Below the pieces are notes generated by a model, which saw only the letters and a program-made list of their open reading frames with translations, was not told the DNA's origin and did no database searches. From IMG/VR virus record IMGVR_UViG_3300017987_000073, positions 16,563-80,562 of that record: DNA of 64,000 nucleotides, one strand, 5' to 3'. The DNA is from a virus. A program made the position numbers and the translations under genes. Shown in pieces: positions 15,870-39,190 of the stretch (position 1 is the stretch's first letter; each line of letters begins with the position of its first letter).

Positions 15870-16607
15870 TCATACCTCCGCTAAGATCATCCCCTTCGGA
15901 TCGTCGGCCTCCCCGAAGTCCACGTGAATCGAGGAGCCCACGACATTCACCTTCCCGACCTCCTGGTGCTTGTGCACGTGCCCGGCGTACACCCGGATCA
16001 CCTTCTTGCTCTTGATCAGACGCGCCGGGATCGAGACACCCGTGTCCCGCTGCACCGGGTCGAACTCCCCGAGCTTGACCCCCGGGACCTCCAGGTGCGA
16101 GAAGACGACGATCGGGAGGTCGGCCTTCTTCAGGATCTCCTTGGAGCTCTCCTCCAGGTACTCCTCCGCGCTCCCAGCCTCGCGCCGGAGCGCCCGGTCG
16201 TCCGTCACGTGGGGCAGGAAGACCAGAAGGTGGTCCTCCACCCGGTGACTCGAGACCCACTCCTCCACCGAGACCCGGTCGAAGTATCCCTCCAGCGGAA
16301 CGAAGGGGTCGAGCGGGTGCGACAACCCCCGAGTCGGGTGGTCGTGGTTCCCGACCAGAAGGAACGCGCGCCCCGAGGTCCTGGAGGCCCACTCGGCGAC
16401 CTCGACGAAGTACCTCATCGCCACCTCGTAGACCGCCGGCGTCGGGCGCGAGTTGTGGAAGAGATCGCCCAGGTCGACGTAGACGTCCGGTCGCTCCCGC
16501 CTGAGCACCTCCACGATCCCCCCGAGCACCCGCTCCTGCTCCTCGAGTCGCTCCATCCCGTCCGAGACGAGCCCGAGGTGCTTGTCCCCGCTGATCAAGA
16601 TCCTCAC
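15870..16607 (-). CDS. Mre11/SbcD-like DNA repair nuclease (gp47-type)
   Basis: A 245-residue metallophosphoesterase. All core motifs are present: SGDKHLG near residue 7, VDLGDLFHN near residue 45, LVGNHDHP near residue 80, VFSHLEVPG near residue 180 and YAGHVHKH near residue 213, giving the two-metal site of Mre11 nucleases. The C-terminal capping domain is short. The GTG at 16607 overlaps the stop of the preceding gene (GTGA), which decides the start. It would pair with the Rad50-like ATPase to resect double-strand ends for strand invasion. Confidence 0.88.
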   Translation of the reverse strand: MRILISGDKHLGLVSDGMERLEEQERVLGGIVEVLRRERPDVYVDLGDLFHNSRPTPAVYEVAMRYFVEVAEWASRTSGRAFLLVGNHDHPTRGLSHPLDPFVPLEGYFDRVSVEEWVSSHRVEDHLLVFLPHVTDDRALRREAGSAEEYLEESSKEILKKADLPIVVFSHLEVPGVKLGEFDPVQRDTGVSIPARLIKSKKVIRVYAGHVHKHQEVGKVNVVGSSIHVDFGEADDPKGMILAEV

Positions 16608-16894: not shown

Positions 16895-18053
16895 TCAACT
16901 CCTCCGCCATCTTCTCCCAGTTGCGCTTGACCGCGCCGTTCTCGTCCGGCGGCGCCTCCTCCTTGAGCCAGGTCAGAAACTCCGCCTTGCTCCCGGCGAG
17001 CCGCTCGTCGCCCTTGAAGTACCCCTTCCCCGTCCGGTGCTTCACCAAACCGCGCGTGATCGCCTCCTCCCGCACCTCGCGGGCGAAGTCGAGTCCCAGG
17101 GGCGTTTGATTCGTCGCCCCCACTGACGAGTAGAAGTAGGCTACCTCGTTCAAGTGCGGCCCGAGGGAGTTCTTGACCACCTCGAGCTCGTGCTTCTCAC
17201 CCACGAGGACCTTGTCATCCTTGTTCTTCACCTCCGCCTTGACCCGGCCGCAGGACGTCACCCGACAGATCCACCCCCCGTCGTAGATCGGGGACTCCCC
17301 GCCCTTGACTTTGTAGGTCCTCTGCCCGGGCATCGTGTCCATCCGCTTCGACTCCCGCTGAACGAAGACGAGGATCTCGTCTCTGTTCAACGTGGGGATC
17401 AACTTGTCGAGCCACTTGGAGGTCAGGAGGGCCCGAAGCGGATAGCCCCGCGCCTCGACCTTCCCCTTCAGGAGCTCCTCGAGCTCGCTGGAGGGCGTCA
17501 ATCGGTTGACGGAGTCCACCGCGATCGCCAGGAACGCCCCCTCCGGGAGTTCCCCGCCCTCCTTGGCCTTCTTGAACTTGGCCCGGTACTCCTCGATCTT
17601 GGCGATGCACTCCTCGTAGGTCCGCGGCTTGTAGTAGGCCACCTCGTCGAGCGCCCCGCAGATCGTCGAGAACCACTTGAGGTCAACCGCCCGACACTCC
17701 GCGTCAACGAAGAGCCCCCACCCCCCGGTGGCCCACGCGTCGTAGAGCACCTCGGCCGCGAAGAGCGTCTTCCCACCCTGGCTCGGTCCGTGGACCACCC
17801 CGAGCATCCCCCCGGGTATCCCGCCACACTTCAGCCCCCGGTTCAACGAGGTGAAGCGCGTGGGACACACGAGGGGCGGCGGGATCTCGCTCCAGAGCTG
17901 GAAACCCTCGATCGACCTCACCGCCTTGGAGAGCGTCTTGCTCCGAGCCGAGACGGGCGGGGGACGAACCGAGGCCACCTCCTCGGAGGTCGCCGGCTCG
18001 GCGGCCTCGGTCGTCTCCCGCTTCACTCGGCGGGACTTGCCCTTCTGCGCCAT
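16875..18053 (-). CDS. RecA/UvsX-like strand-exchange recombinase
   Basis: A 392-residue protein with the RecA core: Walker A GPSQGGKTLFA near residue 89, a FVDAE strand after it and Walker B AIAVDSVNRL near residue 173. A preceding segment, TRFTSLNRGLKCGGIPGG, matches the RecA/UvsX entry to the ATPase fold. The N-terminal 50 residues are a charged tail. It would form filaments on single-stranded DNA for repair and recombination-dependent replication, alongside SSB and the Mre11/Rad50 pair. Confidence 0.85.
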   Translation of the reverse strand: MAQKGKSRRVKRETTEAAEPATSEEVASVRPPPVSARSKTLSKAVRSIEGFQLWSEIPPPLVCPTRFTSLNRGLKCGGIPGGMLGVVHGPSQGGKTLFAAEVLYDAWATGGWGLFVDAECRAVDLKWFSTICGALDEVAYYKPRTYEECIAKIEEYRAKFKKAKEGGELPEGAFLAIAVDSVNRLTPSSELEELLKGKVEARGYPLRALLTSKWLDKLIPTLNRDEILVFVQRESKRMDTMPGQRTYKVKGGESPIYDGGWICRVTSCGRVKAEVKNKDDKVLVGEKHELEVVKNSLGPHLNEVAYFYSSVGATNQTPLGLDFAREVREEAITRGLVKHRTGKGYFKGDERLAGSKAEFLTWLKEEAPPDENGAVKRNWEKMAEELNDEFRE

Positions 18054-19456
18054 CAGAAGGGACTCCCGTCGTCCGGCGCGTACTTGGCGTCACAGTCGGG
18101 GTGAGGACACTCGATCGCGTCCTGGGGCACCGGCTCCCGGCACTTCGGGCAGATATCGTAATCCTCACCCTCGCCGGGGGTCCATCCGAGCTTCTTACTC
18201 GGAGCCTCCTCCTTGACCATCTTCTCCCGTGGCTTGCGCTCGGTCTTCTTCTCCAGCTTCTTCTCCTCCTTGGGCTCCTCCTTCTTCGCCCGCCGCTTCG
18301 ACTTCTCCTCCTTGGGCTCCTCCTTCTTCCGACGAGTCCGTCGCTCGACCTTCGGCGGAGGCTCCTCCTCCTTCTCCTCCTCGCCCTGGTCGTCCTCGCC
18401 CTGGTCCTGGTCGTCCTCGCCCTGGTCGTCCTCGCCCTGGTCGTCGCCCTGGTCCTGGTCGTCGCCCTGGTCCTGGTCGTCCTCGCCCTGGTTGTCGCCC
18501 TGGTCCTGGTCGTCCTCGCCCTGGTCGTCGTCACCGTCCTTCGCGCGCTTCGACTTCCCGCCCTTCGACTCCTCCTCCTTCGGCTTCTTGAACGTTGCCG
18601 CGTCCACCTCGACCTCGAAGTCGTCGAGCACGATCGCGGCGTTGAGCACCGCGCACATCGCGTCGGGATCGTCGAGCTTGATCTCGTCGTCGAGGTCCGG
18701 CGGCTCGGCGTCGAGGATCGCCATCAGCTTGGAGTCCTTCTCCAGACGCTTCGCCTCCTGCGGCCGCGCCCTGGCGGAGTACATATCAGTCCCCTGCTCG
18801 TTCTCGTCGAACGTCAGGATAAACGGATACGGTGTGATAAAGGGGTTCCCCTCCTCCTCGCCGCTCTCGTCGATCTCCGACTCGATCTCCTTCCGGATGT
18901 CGTTCCCGAGCGACTTCGCCCCGGATAGAATCTCGGCCTTGAGATCGGGCGGGCGGTTACCCTTCGAGTCCTCCACCATCACCGCGACGCAGACGAAGTC
19001 GCTCTGCGGGACCAGTCGCTTCCGGAAGTTGTACCCCTCCCAGCCGAGGATCTCACCTTTGCAGAGATCCATTTTGTTCCGCCCGCTCCCCACCGAGATC
19101 ACGATATCCTCCGCGTCGATGCTCTTGTCCTCCTTGAGCATCTTCCGGAGCTTGGCGAAAGGATCCTCCTTCGGATCGTTCGAGACGTTGTAAGGCACCG
19201 TGACGACCTTGACCTTCGGTTTCCGCTTCGAGTCGTCACGCTTCCGCTTGCCCTCACCTTCGCCCTCCTTCTCCTTGACCTCGACCTCCTTCGGAAACCA
19301 GACCCGAAGTCGATCCACGATATCCGTGTCCGGGTGAAGCACGACCTTCGCCTTCGGTCGCCAGTCCATCCGATCGGTCCTCGAGCGCGTTTTGGTCGCC
19401 TTGCGGAGCTTCTCCATCTTCTCCCGAGCTCGCTTGATCCTTTCTTCCTTCGTCAT
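18053..19456 (-). CDS. Large acidic protein with D/Q/G-repeat tract and C-terminal zinc motif, beside RecA-like gene
   Basis: A 467-residue protein starting MTKEERIKRA; the ATG overlaps the preceding stop. Residues about 60-310 are an alpha/beta domain I do not recognise. Then comes a repeated acidic tract built from units like DDQGED and DQDQGD, a K/E/R-rich linker, and a final CPKCREP...CPHPDC zinc finger. The layout (ordered core plus acidic flexible tail) resembles single-strand-binding or recombination mediator proteins. Its position directly before the RecA-like gene supports that, but homology is not shown. Confidence 0.55.
   Translation of the reverse strand: MTKEERIKRAREKMEKLRKATKTRSRTDRMDWRPKAKVVLHPDTDIVDRLRVWFPKEVEVKEKEGEGEGKRKRDDSKRKPKVKVVTVPYNVSNDPKEDPFAKLRKMLKEDKSIDAEDIVISVGSGRNKMDLCKGEILGWEGYNFRKRLVPQSDFVCVAVMVEDSKGNRPPDLKAEILSGAKSLGNDIRKEIESEIDESGEEEGNPFITPYPFILTFDENEQGTDMYSARARPQEAKRLEKDSKLMAILDAEPPDLDDEIKLDDPDAMCAVLNAAIVLDDFEVEVDAATFKKPKEEESKGGKSKRAKDGDDDQGEDDQDQGDNQGEDDQDQGDDQDQGDDQGEDDQGEDDQDQGEDDQGEEEKEEEPPPKVERRTRRKKEEPKEEKSKRRAKKEEPKEEKKLEKKTERKPREKMVKEEAPSKKLGWTPGEGEDYDICPKCREPVPQDAIECPHPDCDAKYAPDDGSPF
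18382..18531 (-). repeat. Coding tandem repeat, units of CTGGTCCTGGTCGTC/CTCGCC type
   Basis: About 150 bases of imperfect tandem units, on the + strand variations of cgccctggtcctggtcgtc. All lie in frame and encode the D, Q, G and E-rich tract of the 18053-19456 protein. Such repeats change length readily by slippage. Confidence 0.85.
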
Positions 19457-20034
19457 TTCGTCTTCTCCTCGCCCCTCCGGGGCAGCATATCCGGTGAAAT
19501 TCCACGACGGCGCTCGACTAAATCCGCCTGCTTCCTCAAGCTGGCCGACCTCGACTCCCACGCGGCGTGCATCTGCTTACACATATTCCGCTCGCGCTCG
19601 AGCTCACGCCTCGCCCGCCTCCACTCCCGGTAGTCGTTGACGTGCGCCGCGATCCAGTTCTCGATCAGGTCGGTCGTGATCTGACCGCTCATCCGCTTCT
19701 CGCGCTTGTCCCGCTCGAGCGCGTCCCGGGCGTGTTGCGACCACTCGGCGAACGCCGCACGCCAGTGAATCTCGAACTCGTCGAGCTCCTCGATCGCTAC
19801 CTGGAGTAACATCCCAGAGCGCCGGAGGTTCGCCTCCCCCTCGTCGAGTGCCCTCAAAATCCTCTCAGCCGAGGCCCGCCCGTCCCCGAGCGAGAGGTCC
19901 CCCTCCAGCTTCTCCCAGACCTGCTCGATGTTCACGTTTCGTAGCCGCTGGTTGAGGAACGCGAACCGCTCGCCCCGCTTCTTGTGCTCGTCCAGCGCCG
20001 CGGACGAGGTCAATTTCTTCGTTCGTCTTCTCAT
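19453..20034 (-). CDS. Helical protein of unknown function in recombination operon
   Basis: A 193-residue, almost entirely helical, highly charged protein with long segments such as RREWRRARRELERERN-like repeats. It overlaps the next gene (ATGA) and lies 1 base from the DNA polymerase stop. It could be a coiled-coil adaptor or recombination mediator; no signature supports a firm call. Confidence 0.5.
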   Translation of the reverse strand: MRRRTKKLTSSAALDEHKKRGERFAFLNQRLRNVNIEQVWEKLEGDLSLGDGRASAERILRALDEGEANLRRSGMLLQVAIEELDEFEIHWRAAFAEWSQHARDALERDKREKRMSGQITTDLIENWIAAHVNDYREWRRARRELERERNMCKQMHAAWESRSASLRKQADLVERRRGISPDMLPRRGEEKTK

Positions 20035-20035
20035 C

Positions 20036-22900
20036 TCACCCCTCTATAACCGCGATGCGGACGCGCGGCGACCTGCGGAGTTCGTCCAGCTCTGGAGGTC
20101 CGAGAACCCCCTTCGGGTTCGCCCGGATCTGATCGATCGCCTTCTGGACCTTCTTCGGGTCCCGAAGCCACTTCTTGTAACGATCGACCAACTTGACTCG
20201 TCGCTTCCGCTGCGAGACGAGCCACCGCGTCCAGTCCTTGCCCGGGTAAACCACCTCCAGGATCCGCTGAGACGCCGGATAAATCACCTTGTCCCAGTAG
20301 TACTCGGGGTCGTAGGTGATCTCGTCGCTCTCCTCGTACTCGTCCCTGGTCACCCCCTGGAGAGGAGACCCGGACTTCGTCACCACGTACTCAACCTTCA
20401 TCCCGACGAAGAACTCCCGCCCGTGCTCCCGGATCTGCTCCGCCAACTTCACGTGGAGGGATTGACTCTTGTACCTGTCCGGCTCCTTGCTGATCCCCTT
20501 CCCGATCACCACGTCGTCGACCGTGAGCTCCCCGGCCAGACAACTGTCGAACGCCGGCTCGACGATCTCCCGCTCCATCTCGTCCGCGTCGATCCCCTTC
20601 ATCAGGATCGCGTCGAGCACCGCCTTCTGGAGAACCCGCGTCTTCCCCGAGCAGTCCGAGCGCATCACCTCGAGCCCCTTGACCTCGACGTGGTCGGTCT
20701 TCCCGCCCTTGTGAGACAGCATCCGGCCGGCGTACCGCTTCTTCTTGACGAAGAAGATCCGGTCGAAGATATCCTCGAACTCCAGGAGGATCGCGTTCCA
20801 CTCCAGGTTGCAGTTGCACTCCTTCAGGATCTCGACGTACCGCTCCTGACAGTAATCGACGAACCGCTCCCCGATCGCGTTGAGCTCGGCGATCCGCTCC
20901 TCCTCCGTCGCCCACTCCTGGTCGGTCGGCGCCAGTTGGATGTACACCGAGTCCGTGTCACCGTAGAGCGGCGCGAACCCGTTGGCCCGGGCGAACTTCT
21001 CGGTCAGTTTGATGAAGAACTGACCGGAAAGGGTGATCGCCTCCGCTAACTCCGTGTCGTAGAACCGACTCCTCGAGTTCCCCATGTCACCGTAGAAGGA
21101 CAGCCCGAGCCTCTTGAACGAGTAGGCGAGTCGGTAGTACAGGAGGAACAGATCGTCCTGAGTCGTCCCCACCACCTCGAGCCGCTGCTTCTGGAGGTCG
21201 GTGTACTTCTTCCGCCGCTCGAGCGTCCTCTCGAACATCTGGGAGATGTACCCCTGTTGATCGATCCGAAAGGTTGTCCCACCCTTGTGAACGACGACCG
21301 GCGACCCATCTTCACCCACCTTGTCCAGATCTATCTCAGGGATCCTGCACAGTTGCGTGGGGTCGAAATCCGGCCGAGATTCGGTCTTGACTATCGTCTC
21401 CGGCGAAATGTTGAAAGCCCGCACCATCGACGGGTACAGGCTCTTGAAGTCGAACGCCGCCACGTTTCGGTGCATCCCCACCTGGGGCGGGAAGACGTAA
21501 GCCCCCTCGTACTGGTCCGGCTTCCTCGGCGACCAGTACCTCGTCCGGAAGTGATGACCCTCCTTGAAGCCCTTCTTCAGGAGAAGCTGATCCACCTTGG
21601 TGGAGATCTGGAAGTCGTTGGGAAACCCGTTGGCGATCCGGCAGAAGAGCTGCTCCACCATCACGAACCCGGTGAACGCCTCGAGCTTCCGGAGGATCGT
21701 CGAGTCCAACCGGTTGTACTCCTCCAGAAGCTCCGGCTCGTACCGGTACAGGTTGATGAACTTCGGCGTGATCCCCGGCCGCCGCTCCCGGAAGATCGTC
21801 CTCCAGTCCAGCTTCTTGATCTTCAGGACCTTGTCCCCGATCGAGTCCAGCGAGAACGAGATCGCGTCCCCACCGGCGCGGACGTAGTGCCGCTTGAAGA
21901 TCGGCAGGGGGTCCACGAGGAGGTTGTACCTCCAGTCGACGAAGATCTTGTGGTGGTAGAATCGATAGATCAGGACCGGGAAGTCGAACCCCGTCCCGTT
22001 CCACGCGCAGTGGACGTCGTACTTGCTCAGGCACCGCCTCTTGAACTCGAGAAGCATCTCCCGCTCGGCCTCGTCCGTCTCCTCCCGCAGGATCACGAAG
22101 CCCTGGTCGTCGGGGTCGTCCTCGACCCGGTCCCCCTCCCACGCTATCGACAGGATCCGGTTGTGCTCCTTGTTGTCGAAGCCACCGACGGAGTCGTCCG
22201 TCTCGATGTCGATGAATCCCATGTGAAACTTGGGGTTGATCCGAATATCGTAGTCCGTGAGGAAGCGTTGCTTCGGCGTCAGGTCCGCCTCGAGCGGCTC
22301 GACTCCCTTCCGGTCGCACCACCGGAGCGTCCAGTGAACGTCGGTCCACCGGTCCCGGTCCTGCGGAAACCTCACCGCCTGCGGCCGCTCCCCGAGCCAG
22401 AAGGCGTCGGCCCAGTGACCCCCGTACTCCGGGTCCCCTACCCGCTGAAAGTACCGCTTCCGGTTGAACTTGGGGAAGTTCTGCTCGATGTAAACTCGAT
22501 AGTAAAGCTCCGGAAAACGCGGATCAGGCTCGACCCGCTTCGCGTGGTTTCGACAGAGCCAGGCCCACTTATCCTCGGGCACCTTCCGGTAGTCCTCCGC
22601 CGTGATGTAGAAGTACCACTCGAACGGGTGGACCTCCTTCACCCGCCTCCCGGTCGCCGGGTCCCTCGTCAGGAGGACGATATCCTTCCCGTCCGACCAC
22701 CCGTGGTAGTAGTAGGTGTGAGGGTTGAAGACGAAGGAGGAGTCCTTCATCTCGTCGAAGTCAGCCGCCTCCGCGAGGTCCTCGAACGCCCGCTTGTCCT
22801 TGACCTTCTTGGAGTCGATCGCCTGCTCGTACTGGGCCCGGTGCTCCACCTTCTCCGAGAGGTCGTCCTCGAGCGCCTGGGTGTCCGAGTCCTGGATCAG
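20036..22900 (-). CDS. Family B DNA polymerase with 3'-5' exonuclease
   Basis: A protein of up to 954 residues. Exonuclease motifs are GFIDIETDD (Exo I), NGTGFDF (Exo II) and YNRLD (Exo III). Polymerase motifs are FDFKSLYPSMV (A), a KRLGLSFYG block (B), YGDTDSVY (C) and KKKRYAG. It is the replicative polymerase. No clear ATG exists at the 5' end. The frame enters from the uracil-glycosylase gene, where CTG at 22900 overlaps that gene's TGA (CTGA), and a GTG lies about 20 codons further in. I use the CTG because the overlap matches the style of neighbouring genes, but the start is uncertain. Confidence 0.93.
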   Translation of the reverse strand: MIQDSDTQALEDDLSEKVEHRAQYEQAIDSKKVKDKRAFEDLAEAADFDEMKDSSFVFNPHTYYYHGWSDGKDIVLLTRDPATGRRVKEVHPFEWYFYITAEDYRKVPEDKWAWLCRNHAKRVEPDPRFPELYYRVYIEQNFPKFNRKRYFQRVGDPEYGGHWADAFWLGERPQAVRFPQDRDRWTDVHWTLRWCDRKGVEPLEADLTPKQRFLTDYDIRINPKFHMGFIDIETDDSVGGFDNKEHNRILSIAWEGDRVEDDPDDQGFVILREETDEAEREMLLEFKRRCLSKYDVHCAWNGTGFDFPVLIYRFYHHKIFVDWRYNLLVDPLPIFKRHYVRAGGDAISFSLDSIGDKVLKIKKLDWRTIFRERRPGITPKFINLYRYEPELLEEYNRLDSTILRKLEAFTGFVMVEQLFCRIANGFPNDFQISTKVDQLLLKKGFKEGHHFRTRYWSPRKPDQYEGAYVFPPQVGMHRNVAAFDFKSLYPSMVRAFNISPETIVKTESRPDFDPTQLCRIPEIDLDKVGEDGSPVVVHKGGTTFRIDQQGYISQMFERTLERRKKYTDLQKQRLEVVGTTQDDLFLLYYRLAYSFKRLGLSFYGDMGNSRSRFYDTELAEAITLSGQFFIKLTEKFARANGFAPLYGDTDSVYIQLAPTDQEWATEEERIAELNAIGERFVDYCQERYVEILKECNCNLEWNAILLEFEDIFDRIFFVKKKRYAGRMLSHKGGKTDHVEVKGLEVMRSDCSGKTRVLQKAVLDAILMKGIDADEMEREIVEPAFDSCLAGELTVDDVVIGKGISKEPDRYKSQSLHVKLAEQIREHGREFFVGMKVEYVVTKSGSPLQGVTRDEYEESDEITYDPEYYWDKVIYPASQRILEVVYPGKDWTRWLVSQRKRRVKLVDRYKKWLRDPKKVQKAIDQIRANPKGVLGPPELDELRRSPRVRIAVIEG

Positions 22901-23484
22901 GTCAGCGCCGGCTCGAAAGCCTCCCTGATCCTCCTCGCGTCCCTCTCCAGGTTCGTCCACTTCCGAAGCGTCGAGATCGGGTGACGCAGGAGCACCGCCT
23001 CCGCGAGCGTCCCGTCCACCCTCCTCCGACTCCCGAAGTCGCTTAACCCGAGGGGGGCGCCCGCCGCCCTCCCGAAGACCAAAACCCTCCTCAAGTTCGG
23101 AAGGATCTCCAGTTCTCTCCTCAAGTGAATCTTCCAGCACGTCTCGACCTCCTCCGGTCTGAGTTCTCGGTTCCCCGGCGTCGCGCACTTCACCGCGTTC
23201 GTCGCGTAGACCTCCCGAAGGTCCAGCTCGGCGACCCTCGACAGATGCCAGAACGCCCGCGCCGCCCCGCGGAGCTTCAGCGCGGCCGCCCTGGACCCGA
23301 GCCGCCCGAGGAGCGGCGCCAAAAAGCACCCCACGCACCCCCACCCCTCGGCCACGACAGATGGGTTCAACCCCACGACCGCGATCCTCGCCCCCGCCGG
23401 CCCGTACCCGACGCACCTCGGGAGACCGAGGTCACCGAGCCCGCAGGCGCGGCAAGCTCCGGTTCTTCTCAAGAGCACTCGCAC
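22897..23484 (-). CDS. Uracil-DNA glycosylase, family 4/5-like
   Basis: A 195-residue protein. CRACGLGD and a later CVGC, plus VETCWK, supply cysteines for a 4Fe-4S cluster, as in family 4 enzymes. RIAVVGLNPSVVAEG corresponds to motif A, EVYATNAVKC to the second block and LLRHPISTLR to the motif B H-P region. It would remove uracil from DNA, fitting the dUTPase and ThyX genes nearby. The GTG at 23484 lies inside the kinase gene; a shorter start a few codons in is possible. Motif A has N-P-S rather than G-E-A-P-G, so substrate range may differ. Confidence 0.7.
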   Translation of the reverse strand: MRVLLRRTGACRACGLGDLGLPRCVGYGPAGARIAVVGLNPSVVAEGWGCVGCFLAPLLGRLGSRAAALKLRGAARAFWHLSRVAELDLREVYATNAVKCATPGNRELRPEEVETCWKIHLRRELEILPNLRRVLVFGRAAGAPLGLSDFGSRRRVDGTLAEAVLLRHPISTLRKWTNLERDARRIREAFEPALT

Positions 23485-29098: not shown

Positions 29099-29113
29099 CT
29101 CTCCACCTCCCTT

Positions 29114-29172
29114 ATACACTTATTGTAGCAGTTTAATACAGTTTGTAAAGGGAAGTGTACAACTAAGTGTAC
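29114..29172. repeat. Putative operator repeats AAGTGTAC around the recombinase promoter
   Basis: On the + strand AAGTGTAC occurs at 29153-29160 and again at 29165-29172 (12-base period), just upstream of the -35. An inverted copy, ATACACTT, lies at 29114-29121 immediately downstream of the -10. A further half-site, AAGTGTA, is at 28373-28379 beyond the recombinase stop. The layout suggests binding sites for a repressor or for the recombinase itself. Confidence 0.55.
29122..29149 (-). promoter_or_regulatory. Strong sigma-70-like promoter of the serine recombinase
   Basis: TTTACA (29144-29149), a 16-base spacer and TACAAT (29122-29127) match the housekeeping consensus at 5 of 6 bases each. 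The -10 ends 23 bases before the recombinase start codon. It is the clearest consensus promoter I found in the window. Confidence 0.65.
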
Positions 29173-30013: not shown

Positions 30014-31162
30014 TCACGATCTCCTGACCCCGGTCCGAAACCTGACCCTGACCCGAGCCACCTCCGCCGGCGGACGAAGCGCGTCCAAGATCACCGCCTC
30101 GTCCGCGTCCCCCGGGTCGGTTCCCGCCGGGAGTTGCCTCACCGCAACCCGGGTGAAACTCCCGAGTTGCTCCTCCACCGTCTTAGCGAGAGTTTCGCCG
30201 CCCTCGTCTCCGTCGGCCATATGGATGAGGAAAGGCGCCGTCCGGAGGTGCTTCGCCTGCGCCGCGTAGAGACGCCCACCGAGCGTCGCCGCGACCGAGT
30301 AGTCGAAGCCGTGGTTTTCCACGATCCCACGTACCCGCTCGGCGTCGAAGTTCCCCTCGACCAGAACCACCGGCCTCCCGGGAACGATCCCGTCGGGCGC
30401 CCAGAGCACTCCGGCGCCCTTCCCCAGCGGGAGCCCGGGGCAGTATCGCCCCTTCAGGTTCGATGCTAGCCGTTTGGTCGTCCCCCGCAGGTACCAGTTG
30501 ACGACCCGCCCCTCCCACCTAATCGGGAAGAGAACCCCCGGGACCGTCTTCCCGATCGCCGTCTTGAGCCGTTCCCCCGCGTTGTACACCACCCGAACGT
30601 CGAGCTCCCGCGCCCGCTCGGGTGAAATGAACCTCCGCTCCAGGTACCGCTGGAAACTCTCCTCCGCCTCATCGATCGGCTTGTTCGGCGGGAAGAGGAG
30701 CTCCGTCCAGTCCGCCGACCGGATCCGACGATTCTCGATCTTTGGGTCGGAGGTCCCGAATCCCTCCCGGTTCAGAAACTCCCTCCGAATCCAGGCGGCC
30801 GCCGCCGACCGTTGCTCCTCGTTCGGCCAATTCAACTTTCCGTCCTCGCGCTCCCCCCACAGGTCGAACTTGATCTTCGCGACCAGGTCGAGGAAGTTGA
30901 ACCCCCTCATCGAGTCGTCCGGGTGCGACCAGCAGTTGAACCACCCGAGCCGACACCTCCCTTCGTCGTTCTCCTCGTCCTCGACGCAGACGTGGAAGCT
31001 CGGGTGCTCGTCCTCGTGGTCCGGATCCGGACACTCCGCGTAAACGTCAGGCCCGTTGTACCAGAGCACCTCGATCCCGAGCTCCTCGAGCACCTCCTCC
31101 ATATCCACTTTCCGGAGGAGCCGCTGCACCCGCTCCAGATCCCGGTCCCGCCTCGACGTCAC
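30014..31162 (-). CDS. DnaG-like primase
   Basis: A 382-residue protein. The N-terminus has a CHC2-like metal site: C44-x4-H49 and C77-x2-H80. The middle half carries the primase core and a Toprim fold: PVVLVEGNFDAERV (catalytic glutamate), AATLGG and FLIHMADGDEGGE (DxD region). It would make RNA primers for PolB. It lies directly after the DnaB-like helicase gene and overlaps it by 4 bases, the usual helicase-primase pairing. Confidence 0.82.
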   Translation of the reverse strand: MTSRRDRDLERVQRLLRKVDMEEVLEELGIEVLWYNGPDVYAECPDPDHEDEHPSFHVCVEDEENDEGRCRLGWFNCWSHPDDSMRGFNFLDLVAKIKFDLWGEREDGKLNWPNEEQRSAAAAWIRREFLNREGFGTSDPKIENRRIRSADWTELLFPPNKPIDEAEESFQRYLERRFISPERARELDVRVVYNAGERLKTAIGKTVPGVLFPIRWEGRVVNWYLRGTTKRLASNLKGRYCPGLPLGKGAGVLWAPDGIVPGRPVVLVEGNFDAERVRGIVENHGFDYSVAATLGGRLYAAQAKHLRTAPFLIHMADGDEGGETLAKTVEEQLGSFTRVAVRQLPAGTDPGDADEAVILDALRPPAEVARVRVRFRTGVRRS

Positions 31163-32487
31163 TTGCCCCCCTTGCCCCCGAAGTAGTCGTCTGTGTGCTT
31201 TCCGATCCGACAGATCTCCGGCTGGAACTCGAACCCGACCGTCACGTTCTGCGGCCCGCGCCGCTGCTTCGCGATCTTCACCTCGAGCACGTCCTCGTCG
31301 TCCTCCTCCGGGTTGTAGTACGCCGACCGATGGAGCAGGAGGACCAGGTCGGCGACCTCCTCGTACCCCCCGGAGTTCTTCAGCTCGTGGAGGTGCGGCC
31401 GCGGGTTCTTCACCCGTTTGATCCTCCTGATCTGCTGCACCACCACCGCGCAGAACTTCCGCCGCTTGGCGAGCTTCTTGAGGCGCCGGAGCTCAGCGGT
31501 CACGTAAGCGGCGTCCAGCTCCCCCTGGAGGAGGTACTCGAAGAGGTCCAGGATCACCACGTCGAAGTCCTCCTGCTCCACCGTCGCCTCGAGCTCGTCC
31601 AGGTTGCTCATCTGATCGTCGAACACGACCCTCTCGTCCGCGAGAAGCTCCCGCGCCTTCTTCCGGAGACCCGACAACTCCTCCCCGGTGAGTTCGTCCG
31701 GAGTCTTGATCACCTTCTCCGCCTTGACCCGAGCCCTCATACACGCGATCTGCTCGACCACCGACTCCGTCCCGGCCTCCACCGGAACCGAGAGCACCCG
31801 CTTTCCGTGGTTCACGAGCCGAGAAGTCAGGTTCGAGCAGAAGGTCGACTTCCCCATTCCTGGACGACCTGCGACCACGACCACCCTCCCCGGCCTCAAC
31901 CCCTCGTAGAGTTGATCGTCCAACCCGGAGAAGTGCGTGGGAACGAAGTTCTCCGTCCTCCGGTTGGCGAGCTCCAGGAGCTCCCCGTACCACTCGTTCA
32001 GGAGACCAGTCCCCCTCCGTGAGCGGGAGTCCGCCGAACTCCCCTCACGGAGCTTTCGGAGGACCTCCATCGCGACCGCCTCGGCGTCCTCGACGCTCGC
32101 GTGGACGTCGTCCAGCGTGTCGTAGAGCCGAGAGAACGGCTCCGCCGCCGCGTACTTCGTCGCCCCCGCCCGGAGGAGCTCCAGGTGAATCCGAAAGTTC
32201 TCCGCGCTCAGGGCCCCGAAGTTGTCCTCCAGGTCCCGGAGGTACTTGTACTTGACCACCTCCCCGGTGATCTGGATCACCGAGTCCGCCGCGTAGCTCG
32301 CCCCCCGCTTCCTCAGCTCCCGAAGCGCCTCCATCGTCGCCCGGTGCGTCGGGTGAGTGAATAGCTCGGGGTCGATCCGGAGGACCTCCCGCTCGAACGT
32401 CTCCGGGTCCCCGACCAGCGCCCCGAGAACCACCTGCTCGTTCCCCGTGTTGACGTCGATCACCAGGTTCGTCTTGTCCTCACCCAC
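31159..32487 (-). CDS. DnaB-like replicative helicase
   Basis: A 442-residue protein. The N-terminal helical domain (NEQVVLGALVGDPETF) and the C-terminal RecA-like motor are both present. Walker A is AGRPGMGKST, followed by FDVVILDLFEYLL (Walker B), VVVQQIRRIK (H3/arginine loop) and a HELKNSGGYEEVADLVLLL block. The GTG at 32487 is chosen because GGGAGC precedes it and it lies by the loader stop; an upstream GTG at 32511 is possible. It would be loaded at the internal origin by the DnaC-like protein. Confidence 0.88.
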   Translation of the reverse strand: MGEDKTNLVIDVNTGNEQVVLGALVGDPETFEREVLRIDPELFTHPTHRATMEALRELRKRGASYAADSVIQITGEVVKYKYLRDLEDNFGALSAENFRIHLELLRAGATKYAAAEPFSRLYDTLDDVHASVEDAEAVAMEVLRKLREGSSADSRSRRGTGLLNEWYGELLELANRRTENFVPTHFSGLDDQLYEGLRPGRVVVVAGRPGMGKSTFCSNLTSRLVNHGKRVLSVPVEAGTESVVEQIACMRARVKAEKVIKTPDELTGEELSGLRKKARELLADERVVFDDQMSNLDELEATVEQEDFDVVILDLFEYLLQGELDAAYVTAELRRLKKLAKRRKFCAVVVQQIRRIKRVKNPRPHLHELKNSGGYEEVADLVLLLHRSAYYNPEEDDEDVLEVKIAKQRRGPQNVTVGFEFQPEICRIGKHTDDYFGGKGGK

Positions 32488-33127
32488 GGTTCCGCTCCCT
32501 TCGCGTCTCACCGATCATCAGGATCTCCTCGAACCGACCCAAGAAGTCGTAGAACCTCGGAGATTGACTTTTGAGCTCCTCGTCCGACAGGTTGCAGGTC
32601 AGCACGGTCGAGAGCTCCTCGTCGTACCGGTGCTCGATCACCCTCTCGAGGAAGTCTCGCTCCCCCTTGTAGTCCGCGATCCGCCCGATGTCGTCGATCA
32701 CCAGGAACGCGCAGTTGAACAACCGCCCCCTGATCTGCTCGTAATCCTCCGAGTCCTCGTCGTCCACCACCCGGTTGAACCGGTACTCCCCGATCTCGGA
32801 CGCCCGAGCGAAGAGGGGCACCCGCTCCGCGTCGAAGAAGTGGATCCCCCGACTCTTGATCCCCAGGTACGCGCGCCGGAGCAGGCACGCCGAGCTCATC
32901 GTCTTCCCCGTCCCGAAGTTCCCGCCGATCAGCAGGTGGACCGGGTCCTCCAAAAACGACCCCTCCAGCAGATCGTCGGCGAGCTCCTCGAGTCGCTTCA
33001 GCGACTTCGCGTAACCTTTCCCGCCGAGGTCCCGCATCTCCGAGACCTCCACCGCGGCGAGCCGAGATGGTATCCGCAATCGGCGGGCGATCCTTCGGCA
33101 CCGCTCCTCGTCAACTCCGTCCTTCAT
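32480..33127 (-). CDS. DnaC/IstB-like helicase loader ATPase
   Basis: A 215-residue AAA+ protein. Walker A is IGGNFGTGKT near residue 73, Walker B FLVIDDIGR near residue 145, and TCNLSDEEL serves as the sensor I region. These match DnaC, DnaI and phage loaders such as lambda P-equivalents of this class. It lies between the initiator and the DnaB-like gene, as expected for the protein that delivers helicase to the origin. Confidence 0.82.
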   Translation of the reverse strand: MKDGVDEERCRRIARRLRIPSRLAAVEVSEMRDLGGKGYAKSLKRLEELADDLLEGSFLEDPVHLLIGGNFGTGKTMSSACLLRRAYLGIKSRGIHFFDAERVPLFARASEIGEYRFNRVVDDEDSEDYEQIRGRLFNCAFLVIDDIGRIADYKGERDFLERVIEHRYDEELSTVLTCNLSDEELKSQSPRFYDFLGRFEEILMIGETRRERNRG

Positions 33128-34388
33128 TTCTCCTTCGCTCCCTCTCTGCGATCACGCGCTCCCAGTTCTCTCGAGTCCCGGCCCGGTCGTTGACCTCCCG
33201 AAGCGTCTCGCGCCGACCGCCGGCGTTCCTTCCCCTTCTATCCAAAATGTCCAGAAGCGTCTGAGGATTACTCGGGGTGAAAAAGTAGTTGAAGCTCACC
33301 GGTTGCCCCCGAGCTTCCGCCCGCTCCAGAATCGCGTCGATCGCGTCCCTCGCTCGAGCTCGATCCCCCTTCAGGTGTCGGTTCGTGAAGCTCGCCGCGT
33401 TCTTCGCCGAGGCGGCGATCGCCCGGTTCTTCACCCCGGCCGCGTAGAAGTTCTCGTCCTCCTCCCCAAACGCCGCCAGGTACTTCGTCACCCAGTACCC
33501 CACGAGGTCCATCCCGGACCACATCTTCACCAACCTCGAAGCGTGAGCGGAGAGTTCCCACCGCTTCGAGGGGGTTTCTGCGAGCTCGGGTCCGCTCGGG
33601 GGTCGAAGTTGCTTCACCCTCCTCCCCGAGCTCCTCGCCTCCCTCTCCGCGATCTTTTCCGCGGCCCGCTTCAAACCCTCGGGCGAGTCCTTGTCGTGAG
33701 TGTCCTCGATCTCCTCGTCCCCCAACTCCTCGTCTCCGGATTCCTCGAGCTCGTACACTTTCTTTCCTCGTCCGGGGTGTGTATCAGATTTCTCCTCGTT
33801 CACTTTCGCTCGAGGTGATTCACCTCGAGCTAACATAGAACTCTTATCCTCTACTCTTAAAGATCTCTTATTGGGGGTGTCAGTTTGACGCACCCCCCTG
33901 TGTTGTTTTGACGCACCCCCCCTGTGTTGTTTTGACGCACCCCCTTCGTCCTCTTGGGGTGCGTCGTTTTGACGCACCCCCCTGCGTTGATTCGCCGCAC
34001 CCCCCTCTGTACACTTGCTCTCGTCTAGGGTCTGTACGCGATCATCAGCGGTCCGATCGCGGGCCTTCTCGGTGAGGAACTTCTCGTTCGAGGGGTCGTC
34101 CAACCACTCCGGCCAGAGCGGCTTGACGTCCACGAGGTGCATCCCGCGCCTCCGCTTCCGCCGGCGCTCGACCAGGCCGAGGTCCTCCAGCTTGTCGAGG
34201 ATCCGATTCACGTTTCTGCGGTCGTCGATCCCGGACACCTCGGCCAACTTCTTGATGCTGAGGTTGTTTCTCTTCATCTCGTCCCACGTGTGGATCACCG
34301 ACCAGAGGTACTTGTCCCGAAAGGTCAGATCCTTGCAGTGAGCGATCGGAGCTGGGATCTGATAGAATACGTAATCCTTGGAGTTCAC
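33111..34388 (-). CDS. Lambda O-like replication initiator with internal origin
   Basis: A 425-residue protein. Residues 1-90 form a winged helix (LTFRDKYLWSVI, SIKKLAEVSGIDDRRNVNRILDKL split by turns). The middle, encoded by the iterons, reads as QHRGG and VRQ-type repeats. The C-terminal 150 residues are helical and basic, as in initiators that bind a loader. The GTG at 34388 overlaps the preceding stop (GTGA). Gene order (initiator, loader, helicase, primase) and the iterons, A/T-rich block and palindrome inside the gene copy the lambda O/P plan. Confidence 0.75.
   Translation of the reverse strand: MNSKDYVFYQIPAPIAHCKDLTFRDKYLWSVIHTWDEMKRNNLSIKKLAEVSGIDDRRNVNRILDKLEDLGLVERRRKRRRGMHLVDVKPLWPEWLDDPSNEKFLTEKARDRTADDRVQTLDESKCTEGGAANQRRGVRQNDAPQEDEGGASKQHRGGASKQHRGVRQTDTPNKRSLRVEDKSSMLARGESPRAKVNEEKSDTHPGRGKKVYELEESGDEELGDEEIEDTHDKDSPEGLKRAAEKIAEREARSSGRRVKQLRPPSGPELAETPSKRWELSAHASRLVKMWSGMDLVGYWVTKYLAAFGEEDENFYAAGVKNRAIAASAKNAASFTNRHLKGDRARARDAIDAILERAEARGQPVSFNYFFTPSNPQTLLDILDRRGRNAGGRRETLREVNDRAGTRENWERVIAERERRRNEGRS
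33808..33830. repeat. Perfect 11-bp inverted repeat at the origin
   Basis: GCTCGAGGTGA (33808-33818) and TCACCTCGAGC (33820-33830) are exact complements around one central T. It lies on the far side of the A/T-rich block from the iterons, where lambda ori has its own palindrome. Confidence 0.85.
33831..34010. other. Putative replication origin: A/T-rich block plus five iterons
   Basis: On the + strand, TTTGACGCACCCCCC-type repeats begin at 33884, 33907, 33931, 33968 and (degenerate) 33991. Spacings are 23, 24, 37 and 23 bases. An inverted GGGGTGCGTC sits at 33956-33965. The most complete copies run into CTGTGTTG. The adjoining 33831-33870 is conspicuously A/T-rich for this genome and could be the unwinding element. 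All of it lies inside the initiator gene. Confidence 0.72.
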
Positions 34389-34753
34389 GGTCGCACCTCC
34401 CCCTCCTCGAACGTGTCCCAGTCGTCGTACATCTCCCCGTCCTCGTCGATCACCGTGACCCACCCGTCGCAAGCGTAGGCGGCCGCTTCCTGGGCCAGCC
34501 ACTCGGGACAACGGATCCGGTACCCGCGCTTCTCCACGCTCCAACTGATCACCAGCCCCTTACCCTTCAGATCCTCCATCACCTCGAACAAACGCTCGAC
34601 GGTGACGCCGACCCGTCCGGCGATCTCCCCCCAGTCGGCCGGTCGATCGGTGTAGGTCCAGGTGTCCAGCGAGCCGAAGACCGCCTTCTCCTCGAAGGTC
34701 AACCGCTCGCTGGCCATCACCTCCAGCGGCGTCAAGAATAACGGGAAATTCAT
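34385..34753 (-). CDS. Winged-helix DNA-binding protein, first gene of the replication operon
   Basis: A 122-residue protein. LTFEEKAVFGSLDTW and VGVTVERLFEVMEDLKGKGLV read like the same winged-helix plan as the initiator's N-terminus (LTFRDKYLW...LDKLEDLGLV), so the two may be paralogues. The C-terminus is acidic. It may regulate the operon or help initiation. It overlaps the initiator GTG and follows a candidate promoter. Confidence 0.6.
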   Translation of the reverse strand: MNFPLFLTPLEVMASERLTFEEKAVFGSLDTWTYTDRPADWGEIAGRVGVTVERLFEVMEDLKGKGLVISWSVEKRGYRIRCPEWLAQEAAAYACDGWVTVIDEDGEMYDDWDTFEEGEVRP

Positions 34754-34784
34754 CGGACCCTCCTCCGCGAAAGTTTGACGAGGT

Positions 34785-34814
34785 GTTGTACCGCGTCCCC
34801 TGTTCAGTTGTTAA
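34785..34814 (-). promoter_or_regulatory. Candidate promoter of the replication operon
   Basis: TTAACA (34809-34814), an 18-base spacer and TACAAC (34785-34790) precede the winged-helix gene by about 30 bases. Match to sigma-70 consensus is 5/6 and 4/6. It lies in the 57-base gap after the KTSC gene. Confidence 0.4.
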
Positions 34815-35140
34815 CGCGATGTTCGCGGGGCGTGATCCGAGCAGAAGCGGAGGGGCCCGCCGAGGACGTCCGAGGTCGAGGCTTCCGAGCAACCGGCGAC
34901 GCCGCAGAGTCGGATCGCGTGCCGCGGCCGCACCTTGGCGTGGAAGAACCGCCCCTTGCTCTCGCTCGCGACCAGGGCGTGGAACAGGTCCCGAGCTCCG
35001 GGGTAACGGTAGGCGGGTCCGGCCTTGAACCAGACGATCAGGTCCTCCCCTATCACCCCGGCCGCGGCCAGGTTCGAGCTCTCGACCTCGGCGAACTCCT
35101 CCACGAGCTCGCGGTCGGTGTCCAGGTACTTGGCGTTCAC
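34811..35140 (-). CDS. KTSC-domain protein
   Basis: A 109-residue protein. Residues 20-75 (VESSNLAAAGV, LIVWFKAG, YRYPGARDLFHALVASESKGRFFHAKVR) match the KTSC fold: SSNI, a beta pair, Y.Y..V and S.G.yf...I. KTSC domains are common in phages and are linked loosely to nucleic acid metabolism. A C-terminal tail carries CGVAGC and C-x-D-H that could bind metal. The GTG at 35140 overlaps the preceding stop. Confidence 0.65.
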   Translation of the reverse strand: MNAKYLDTDRELVEEFAEVESSNLAAAGVIGEDLIVWFKAGPAYRYPGARDLFHALVASESKGRFFHAKVRPRHAIRLCGVAGCSEASTSDVLGGPLRFCSDHAPRTSR

Positions 35141-35559
35141 GGTTTCACCTCCTCCTCTTTGGCGTCCAGCAGGCGGGCCTCCCGAACGTGTTTCTTGGCC
35201 TCCTCGATCACCGCCGCTCGAGCCGCGTCCGCCAGCCCGAACAGGACGTTCGCTCGCTCCCACGCCTGAAGGTTGTGGAACCTCCTTCGATCCCGCGCGA
35301 GAACCTCCGCGTCCGACCCGAAGACCGGCGTCCGGACGAGGTTAAAGATCCGCTCGACGACGTGCGGAGCCGCCGCCCCACCCTCCAGGAGCTCGGCGAC
35401 GAACTCCTCGACCCGTCCGAGGTCGTACTTCTCCTCCTCAATGGCGTACAGCGGGCGATCGGGGTCGAACCCGGGGCAGATCGACACCCCGTCGATCTCG
35501 ATCGAACCGTCCTCTCGTCGCCAGCCGCTCAACTCGAAGTGCGCGTTCGCCTTCTTCAT
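35137..35559 (-). CDS. Hypothetical protein
   Basis: A 140-residue, mixed and acidic protein starting MKKANAHFEL. No motif recognised. The ATG at 35559 overlaps the preceding stop (ATGA), which supports that start over an upstream in-frame one. Confidence 0.55.
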   Translation of the reverse strand: MKKANAHFELSGWRREDGSIEIDGVSICPGFDPDRPLYAIEEEKYDLGRVEEFVAELLEGGAAAPHVVERIFNLVRTPVFGSDAEVLARDRRRFHNLQAWERANVLFGLADAARAAVIEEAKKHVREARLLDAKEEEVKP

Positions 35560-38713: not shown

Positions 38714-39190
38714 TCAGCGAGCGGCGCTCACGCCGGTGCAGACCCCGCCGGAGATCAACGCCCCGGTGATGAACGCGAGGTACCGGCTCTTGTACCACGG
38801 GGGGGAGGCGCTGGCGCCGTCCAGGGCCTTCTCGTAGATCAGCTTCTGTCGGTCTAGGTCCCGGCGGAGCGCCTCGTACTTCGCCCGCTCAGCGGCGACC
38901 TCGGCGGCGTGGATCGCCGTCAACTTCTCGAGCCGCGCCTTGGTCTTCTCACGCTCGGCCTCGAGCTCGAGCTTGATCTTCCCGACGTCGGACTCGAGCT
39001 CGGTGACCAGCTTCGCCAGGGCGGCGGGGGTGAACAGAACCCCGGTGAAGGGGACCTTCCCCCCCTCCTTCACCTCCGCCCGGCGAACGTCGAGTTTCGG
39101 TGGGTCAGCGCCGAAGGATCTCGTCGACGCGAGCGAGCAGAGCGTCGGGATCGTCAGTGAGATCACGAAACTTCTTAGCAGTCTGTTCAT
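38714..39190 (-). CDS. Exported coiled-coil protein with C-terminal membrane segment (candidate unimolecular spanin)
   Basis: A 158-residue protein. The N-terminus is a signal peptide (LLRSFVISLTIPTLCSLAS) with a cysteine but a poor lipobox. A KVPFTGVLFTP block follows, then a coiled coil (about residues 62-120), and finally a hydrophobic segment (YLAFITGALISGGVCTGV). Outer-membrane lipid anchor, coil and C-terminal inner-membrane anchor is the plan of u-spanins, which fuse the two membranes of Gram-negative hosts. It starts inside the end of the 39105-39443 gene. Confidence 0.5.
   Translation of the reverse strand: MNRLLRSFVISLTIPTLCSLASTRSFGADPPKLDVRRAEVKEGGKVPFTGVLFTPAALAKLVTELESDVGKIKLELEAEREKTKARLEKLTAIHAAEVAAERAKYEALRRDLDRQKLIYEKALDGASASPPWYKSRYLAFITGALISGGVCTGVSAAR

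Follow-up and report, generated by a model that had tools for sequence, protein, structure and literature searches.

Where does a phage that encodes its own replicative helicase, helicase loader and primase begin to copy its DNA? The question is raised by the replication initiator gene of a 64-kb window (the whole stretch of DNA analysed here, positions 16,563 to 80,562 of the 80.6-kb IMG/VR virus record IMGVR_UViG_3300017987_000073), inside which a preliminary description, made from the letters alone, had placed a lambda-style origin. Our analysis indicates that this very divergent phage very probably has its theta-type replication origin inside its own initiator gene, within the stretch that encodes the linker. 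Origins of this kind are known from lambda O, SPP1 gp38 and the RepA_N plasmids, and the window holds a diverged variant. The elements concerned are the following.

33111..34388, minus strand: initiator gene (GTG start, 425 codons), encoding a winged helix-turn-helix (wHTH) domain, a linker whose coding part holds the proposed origin, and a helical C-terminal domain
34101..34364, minus strand: predicted winged-helix DNA-binding domain, residues ~9-96 (PF12802, E value 1.8e-5; PF01047, 1.9e-5; structural model and VIA structural comparison)
33989..34006, minus strand: iteron 1 (degenerate)
33966..33983, minus strand: iteron 2
33929..33946, minus strand: iteron 3
33905..33922, minus strand: iteron 4
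33882..33899, minus strand: iteron 5, a hyphenated dyad GGGGGTGC...ACACCCCC
33831..33870, minus strand: A/T-rich block, proposed DNA unwinding element (from stability and A+T content)
33808..33830, no strand assigned: palindrome GCTCGAGGTGATTCACCTCGAGC, with 11-bp arms and a 1-nt spacer
33240..33554, minus strand: predicted helical C-terminal domain, residues ~279-383 (kept in related viruses; structural model)

An iteron array within the initiator gene

Five direct repeats of the GGGGGTGCGTCAAAAC type, four clear and one degenerate as first described, lie ~380-510 nt inside the initiator gene, in the part that encodes the linker. Their starts are 23, 37, 24 and 23 bp apart in gene direction, and four of the five contain TCAAA. 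With a weight matrix made from the five, the iterons score 22.7-28.8, the next best site in the 64 kb scores 17.9, and the best in the remaining 16.5 kb of the record 13.5. Five 12-mer copies with at most two mismatches fall within 160 bp, a number that none of 200 protein-preserving shuffles reached (synonymous codons were exchanged with the protein held fixed; the maximum was four), and on a second array metric none of 60 shuffles equalled the window array. When the window was divided into 97 overlapping tiles, only one further array of at least five copies turned up, a low-complexity repeat inside a gene, at 18378. The iteron copies are read in two frames and yield different peptides, GGASKQH and GVRQTD, which makes them DNA repeats and not a simple duplication within the protein.

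Iteron 2 is part of a full dyad, GGGGTGCGTC-AAAAC-GACGCACCCC (33956-33980), with perfect 10-bp arms and a 5-nt spacer. The inverted partial copy of the iteron that had been reported does exist as sequence, but it is no separate element, being the right arm of this dyad. Perfect dyads with 10-bp arms and spacers of 3-7 occur twice in the 64 kb, both times at the proposed origin; since ten simulated sequences gave 0-2 such dyads each, it is their location that is informative and not their number.

The low-complexity repeat mentioned above (CCTGGTCGTCCTCGCC type, 18378-18540) is dense and lies inside an open reading frame (18053-19561) for which neither PHROG nor Pfam gave a match.

An unstable block and a palindrome follow the iterons

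The 40 bases at 33831-33870 tie with 29111-29150 as the least stable 40 bp of the 64 kb (-44.3 kcal/mol from nearest-neighbour energies, z 5.1), and they hold the least stable 30 bp of the initiator gene. One base further on (33832-33871) the A+T content is 70%, compared with a window mean of 34%, which is the third highest value for 40 bp in the window. Both this A/T-rich block and the exact 11-bp palindrome next to it had been proposed, and both were confirmed. The palindrome, 68 bp from the start of the last iteron, is the sole one of its form (11-bp arms, 1-nt spacer) in the window, where no other perfect dyad with arms of 9 bp and a spacer of 0-4 occurs either. Its fold as single-stranded DNA has an energy of -10.9 kcal/mol, which none of 200 shuffles equalled. 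No Rfam match was found in 33000-35500.

The initiator gene of the window thus combines an array beyond chance, an unstable A/T element adjoining it and loader and helicase genes next to it, with the A/T block and then the palindrome ~50-70 bp past the start of the last iteron.

The layout is kept in two related lineages

The DNA polymerase of the phage led to three related viral contigs (G001, G002 and G003, 65-72% identity), and a final alignment scan of viral contigs, which like the other scans relied on short peptide patterns and can miss relatives, returned the same three only. Under that limit no relatives were found with the initiator in viral contigs, phages or plasmids (few patterns), with the loader in viral contigs, with DnaB in genome and viral contigs, or with the polymerase in genome contigs; the primase and one large late protein found no kin among phages, where DnaB gave distant matches only (14 records). 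G001 and G002 do not differ in the 4,601 bp compared and therefore count as one lineage, represented below by G002, which with G003 makes two kin lineages in all.

The kin initiators are 32-41% identical to that of the window, depending on the segment, and stand in the same operon with loader, DnaB and primase. In the protein alignment the wHTH and C-terminal domains are conserved, and the linker between them has few conserved residues. In both kin lineages iterons come first, then an A/T-rich block and then a palindrome, as in the window and at the same place in the gene, so that the order described for the window (wHTH domain, iterons, A/T-rich block, palindrome, C-terminal domain, then the loader gene) holds in all three lineages. 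G002 has three iterons, one GTGCGTCATAGTGACGC and two of the GTGGGTCAAG type, 24 bp apart and all in one frame; its A/T block is the least stable 40 bp of the gene and is followed by the palindrome GCAAACGGG-TGT-CCCGTTTGC. G003 also has three iterons, GGGGGGTCACCT(T/G)GACCC, 37 and 36 bp apart and in different frames, each a near full palindrome and a clear dyad without an A-rich centre; its A/T block is followed by the palindrome GACCCGCGG-ACG-CCGCGGGTC.

From the start of the last iteron to the palindrome the distance is 68 bp in the window, 60 bp in G002 and 65 bp in G003. The three palindromes have their symmetry in common and not their sequence, and they lie in three different frames. An iteron core, GGGTGSGTCA, is still common to the window and G002, most other letters having changed. 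That the layout is kept while the letters change argues that selection holds the array, the unstable block and a palindrome at ~60-70 bp. The iterons, the block, the palindrome, the gene order, their conservation in kin and this selection at the DNA level can all be read from the sequences themselves. The three lineages, each encoding a DnaB, a loader and a primase of its own, keep the lambda layout while most letters change and so offer an outgroup for a textbook origin.

Comparison with lambda, P22 and other initiator genes

Lambda ori in gene O and the P22 origin in gene 18 lie, like the one proposed for the window, in the middle of the initiator gene, and in lambda (four annotated iterons, from NC_001416) an A/T-rich block comes after the iterons, as in the window. 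The lambda iterons are palindromic with an A-rich centre, which the window shares in part (TCAAA in four iterons, clear dyads in two). According to the available text of two papers, lambda O binds as dimers to palindromic iterons joined by adenines, beside an A/T-rich stretch, and opens a 40-bp A/T region (PMC6022878, PMC5043065); the minimal unwinding fragment is given as two iterons plus the A/T block in the portion of PMC7466680 at hand, and ori as 39034-39160 in that of PMC3349717. The last three iterons are spaced 24 and 23 bp in both lambda and the window, the palindrome comes 61 bp (lambda) and 70 bp (P22) after the start of the last iteron, compared with 68 bp in the window, and the best local dyad of the lambda gene is likewise past the A/T block. 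Judged by arrangement, the label lambda-style is right.

The window differs from lambda in having five iterons with one 37-bp gap, a DnaC/IstB-type loader in place of P, its own DnaB, primase and family B DNA polymerase (PolB), and an extra small wHTH gene; a P-type loader is not required, since P22 carries a DnaB-like gene at the loader position. The iteron sequence had been called not lambda-like, which stands for the arms and not for the centre: the centre of lambda iteron 1, TCAAAACGA, is the same 9-mer as in iteron 2 of the window. As at least 9 bp are common to 14 of 105 pairs of in-gene arrays from different phages, such matches are not rare, the shared 9-mer is unexceptional and its letters were given no weight; the null used for it was flawed in that random lambda segments could include iterons.

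At the protein level the initiator N-terminus has weak Pfam matches to the winged-helix families MarR, TrmB and HTH_36, and it matches the replication-initiator PHROG profiles 270, 428, 345 and 678 (E 2e-5 to 2e-3). Two of these are O-like: 345 (E 3.6e-4) and 678 (E 0.0017), the latter, 'replication initiation O-like', matching the window, G002 and G003 proteins (best 6.5e-6) as well as lambda O. BLASTP over the first 120 residues gave no match between the window initiator and lambda O at E <= 10, and PF04492 (Phage_rep_O) did not match it at E <= 0.01. The proposed lambda-like arrangement is supported as such, and descent from lambda O, or membership of its sequence family, is weakly indicated.

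We surveyed 25 initiator or putative initiator genes, the window's included, which were picked non-randomly by tblastn and pattern matches. Thirteen have an array exceeding all 60 shuffles. In nine of these 13 (ten without the stray fifth copy of Mannheimia) the least stable 40 bp starts 13-30 bp past the last copy, the exceptions being GBK2, VibK66 and Vib1177. A palindrome past the block is the best local dyad of the gene (arms separated by no more than 8 nt, a definition that does not see hairpins between iterons) in six of 15 genes examined, namely those of the window, lambda, P22, Mannheimia, HK225 and KP5; the lambda, HK225 and KP5 palindromes are all GAATTC-centred and hence not independent. 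The eight iteron-palindrome gaps compared come from genes that have the palindrome. An unstable block beside the array is thus common in this class, and the palindrome is found only in a subset. An A-tract centre on the coding strand was considered as a general mark of such iterons and dropped: it fits many, lambda, P22, Skulduggery, HU1 and GBK2 among them, and fails in G003, and its orientation could stem from coding bias in a hydrophilic linker. Two surveyed arrays have a shorter period than the usual 20-24 bp, 15 bp in PhiR49_1 (L208 794-1735) and 11 bp in Vibrio 1.177 (L200 1132-1860), and both beat 60 shuffles.

Searches for the iteron letters yielded few initiator genes. A 14-mer search gave 78 stretches, and of the 78 new loci only two (L011 and L056) had at least two core sites within 250 bp. 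With a two-copy pattern 102 stretches were obtained; most of the 80 read were repeats or pairs in unrelated frames, and three were helix-turn-helix (HTH) initiator genes (L128, L139 and L149), with weak matches to HTH_36 in L128 and L149. A three-copy pattern gave 19 stretches, one of which (L149) was recognised as an initiator gene. By these pattern searches the iteron sequence is not a common phage motif. The HTH initiator genes of the IMG/VR contigs L128 (9301-9984) and L139 (1690-2445) contain five 21-bp iterons with a TCAAATTGACGCACC core, which in L128 are directly followed by the 40 bp of lowest stability in the gene.

Relation to RepA_N, SPP1 and GBK2 initiators

A structural model built from the three-row kin alignment (mean pLDDT 52.5; 55-84 per ten residues over residues 11-100) orders the N-terminal domain as helix-helix-helix-strand-strand and has C-terminal helices of moderate pLDDT; a model from the single sequence had a mean pLDDT of 42. 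Residues 107-235, whose codons contain all origin elements, have a pLDDT below 50 with no secondary structure past a helix that ends at ~116, and the linker is predicted as likely to be disordered.

In the VIA comparison the top rows were 4pql_B (Z 10.5, root-mean-square deviation (rmsd) 2.5, 102 residues aligned), 4pt7_B (Z 10.4, rmsd 2.9, 102 aligned) and 5kbj_A (Z 10.1, rmsd 3.5, 107 aligned), followed by a row at 9.3 and many plain transcription regulators at Z 8-9. Rows within one Z unit being tied, the lead is narrow, and only the first two rows are clear of the fourth. We take 4pql and 5kbj to belong to the same group as 4PT7 (RepA). Foldseek gave no match to the three-row model at E <= 0.001, a profile search against PDB sequences returned one row, a MarR-type regulator (E 0.38), and RepA_N (PF06970) had no Pfam match at E <= 0.01 in the window, G002 or G003 initiators.

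In the available text of PMC7145576, 4PT7 is S. aureus RepA and RepA_N iterons are inverted repeats converging on a poly-A tract. The accessible part of PMC5703833 places four Rep boxes centrally in the rep gene of pSK41, where the wHTH domain binds them; like the window initiator, pSK41 Rep has a wHTH N-terminal domain and a separate C-terminal domain, and its middle part is dispensable (PMC5703833). RepA_N initiators (pSK41, pTZ2162) and PLE RepA may resemble that of the window in fold, to judge from the narrowly leading VIA rows, and the window adds a phage operon of loader, helicase and primase. SPP1 oriL lies within gene 38 and needs the phage's own loader and DnaB-family helicase, according to the part of PMC6316719 at hand; compared by description and not by letters, SPP1 gp38/gp39/gp40 is like the window in its in-gene direct repeats, its A/T-rich element and its own loader and helicase. 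SPP1 differs in having a second origin, oriR, the window record showing no second iteron site. Geobacillus phage GBK2 also has iterons inside a gene, seven of the GTTGGTAAAACACCAAC kind, with genes for a helicase loader and a helicase coming next. It differs in that 62 bp separate the last copy from the A/T block and that no prominent palindrome was found in the following 45-145 bp. The GBK2 gene (L199 1079-2008) is annotated as 'primase' and, by its content, probably encodes an initiator. The set ties lambda-type, SPP1-type and RepA_N-type in-gene origins together.

Weighing the origin reading

Several observations count against an origin at this place. Clear dyads are formed by two of the five window iterons only (2 and 5), the other three making poor ones. 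The A/T block of G003 is the second least stable in its gene and not the first (rank 31/1210 for 30 bp). The direct-repeat test is weak in the kin, the G003 value being reached by 6 of 100 protein-preserving shuffles and the metric favouring a different, GA-rich family in G002. In a summed-dyad test 10 of 200 shuffles reached the value of the window, a modest result; G002 (1 of 200) and G003 (0 of 200) gave stronger ones. Some accepted or likely origins also do weakly in this test, HK225 with 16 and Mannheimia with 33 shuffles out of 200, the counts for lambda, P22 and KP5 being 0, 4 and 4. No exact end repeats of at least 20 nt were found in the record, and GC skew shows no inversion at the proposed origin. 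Because the direct-repeat and dyad statistics are individually uneven, it is order, position and symmetry in combination that carry the case.

It is highly improbable that the repeats have no function as DNA and represent a tandem duplication at the protein-coding level. A low-confidence, likely disordered linker would tolerate repeats, and the three copies of G002 all share one frame, but the copies stand in different frames in the window and G003, no protein-preserving shuffle reaches the window array, and the encoded linker is little conserved in the kin whereas iterons, A/T block and palindrome are kept; pure coding duplication without conservation in relatives, which the preliminary description had named as fatal to an origin, is thus not what we found. 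It is also unlikely that the repeats form an operator array, bound by the initiator or by the small wHTH protein to control transcription, with the true origin elsewhere. The small wHTH protein encoded just upstream would be a natural binder, and iteron initiators often autoregulate; yet the array lies deep inside the gene, a scan for sigma-70-type sites gave no promoter-like match on either strand of 33600-35000, the best iteron-like site in the operon leader scores 12.4 compared with 22.7-28.8, and the rest of the record has no rival array of at least five copies except the low-complexity in-gene repeat. A further point against it is that in three lineages the array is coupled to both a palindrome and an unstable block. 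Slightly less improbable, though still unlikely, is a palindrome that acts as an mRNA hairpin, an attenuator or terminator, and is no part of an origin: its stable single-strand fold (computed as DNA) would suit such a role, but it is not among the three terminator-like sites in 33600-35000, it has no Rfam match, and a similar distance from the iterons is kept across lineages.

The last alternative disputes the family name and not the function: an origin working in the same way might descend from initiators nearer to RepA_N/DnaD or SPP1 gp38 than to lambda O, which we consider a serious possibility at somewhat less than even chances. Three initiator domains head the VIA comparison, RepA_N iterons converge as inverted repeats on poly-A (PMC7145576, available text), the pSK41 origin lies inside rep (PMC5703833, available text), and the loader is DnaC/IstB-like and unmatched as lambda P. 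Against this stand the missing RepA_N match in Pfam (E <= 0.01) and the empty Foldseek result (E <= 0.001), a mediocre model with near-tied VIA rows and transcription regulators at Z 8-9, the matches to O-like PHROG profiles, and a palindrome positioned as in lambda and P22.

A proposed mechanism and a possible role of the palindrome

For an origin within the initiator gene, the steps of initiation can be modelled on lambda, SPP1 and pSK41. The wHTH domain of the initiator would bind all five iterons, most likely as a dimer where these are palindromic, and the resulting nucleoprotein complex would melt the adjoining A/T-rich block. Placing the phage DnaB on the single strand would then fall to the C-terminal domain together with the DnaC-like loader, and priming to the phage primase. 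More speculatively, the palindrome past the melted block may form a hairpin or bind a dimer, and so help helicase loading or bound the opened region.

In lambda the corresponding palindrome (39162-39189) starts just past the usual limit of ori, which makes its role a concrete, testable question. The available text of PMC7466680 raises hairpin or cruciform structures in lambdoid origins, the most stable in gene O being pairs of iterons, and for lambda these speak against the post-block palindrome being the strongest hairpin. The string 'palindrom' is absent from the main texts of PMC6022878, PMC7466680 and PMC5043065. Among literature titles we found none on the role of the lambda post-block palindrome, which older work may treat. 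The lambda inverted repeat itself has already been described. We tentatively suggest, as a rather doubtful proposal, that the palindrome could be a third functional part of this origin class, selected for its shape and not its letters and neglected so far, in lambda too; it would act as a single-strand hairpin that marks the point of DnaB delivery or the primase start, while a small wHTH paralogue would compete for the iterons and throttle firing. By sequence comparison the proposed origin of the window is a diverged variant; it comes with this additional conserved gene, and its palindrome keeps its shape while the letters change.

The replication operon and neighbouring genes

The initiator gene is flanked by the following genes.

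34385..34753, minus strand: small wHTH protein, 122 codons, directly upstream of the initiator gene with a 4-nt stop/start overlap
32480..33127, minus strand: DnaC-like helicase loader (phrog_50, 3.7e-18; PF01695, 4.8e-7), overlapping the end of the initiator gene
31159..32511, minus strand: DnaB-like replicative helicase (PF03796, 1.4e-38)
30014..31162, minus strand: Toprim (DnaG-like) primase (PF13155, 7.3e-6; phrog_47, 4.9e-22)

Loader, helicase and primase follow downstream of the initiator as overlapping genes. The loader has the same position in the kin (phrog_50, 6.1e-16 and 1.7e-8), whose primases also match phrog_47, and DnaB is 67% identical to that of G001 and G002 and 68% and 51% identical, for two parts, to that of G003. 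A small wHTH-type gene stands at the same place in both kin lineages. The small protein is probably a paralogue of the N-terminal domain of the initiator, as judged from BLASTP (E 0.002 in the window and 2.9e-8 in G003, in an eight-sequence comparison); the G003 and window copies match each other only at E 0.36. It could compete for the iterons or pair with the initiator, which we offer as a lead.

In the G003 DnaB (L231 971-3262, minus strand) the P-loop is followed by an in-frame insert that weakly matches homing endonucleases (PF05204, 0.0011; PF14528, 0.0038), and by its sequence the insert is probably an intein.

The phage additionally encodes a family B DNA polymerase, a class II ribonucleotide reductase and a phage tail protein. 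The best named tblastn matches of PolB (20036-23416) are mostly haloarchaeal tailed viruses, at ~24-27% identity, and this contrasts with the DnaB, DnaC, primase and peptidoglycan-binding protein found in the same phage.

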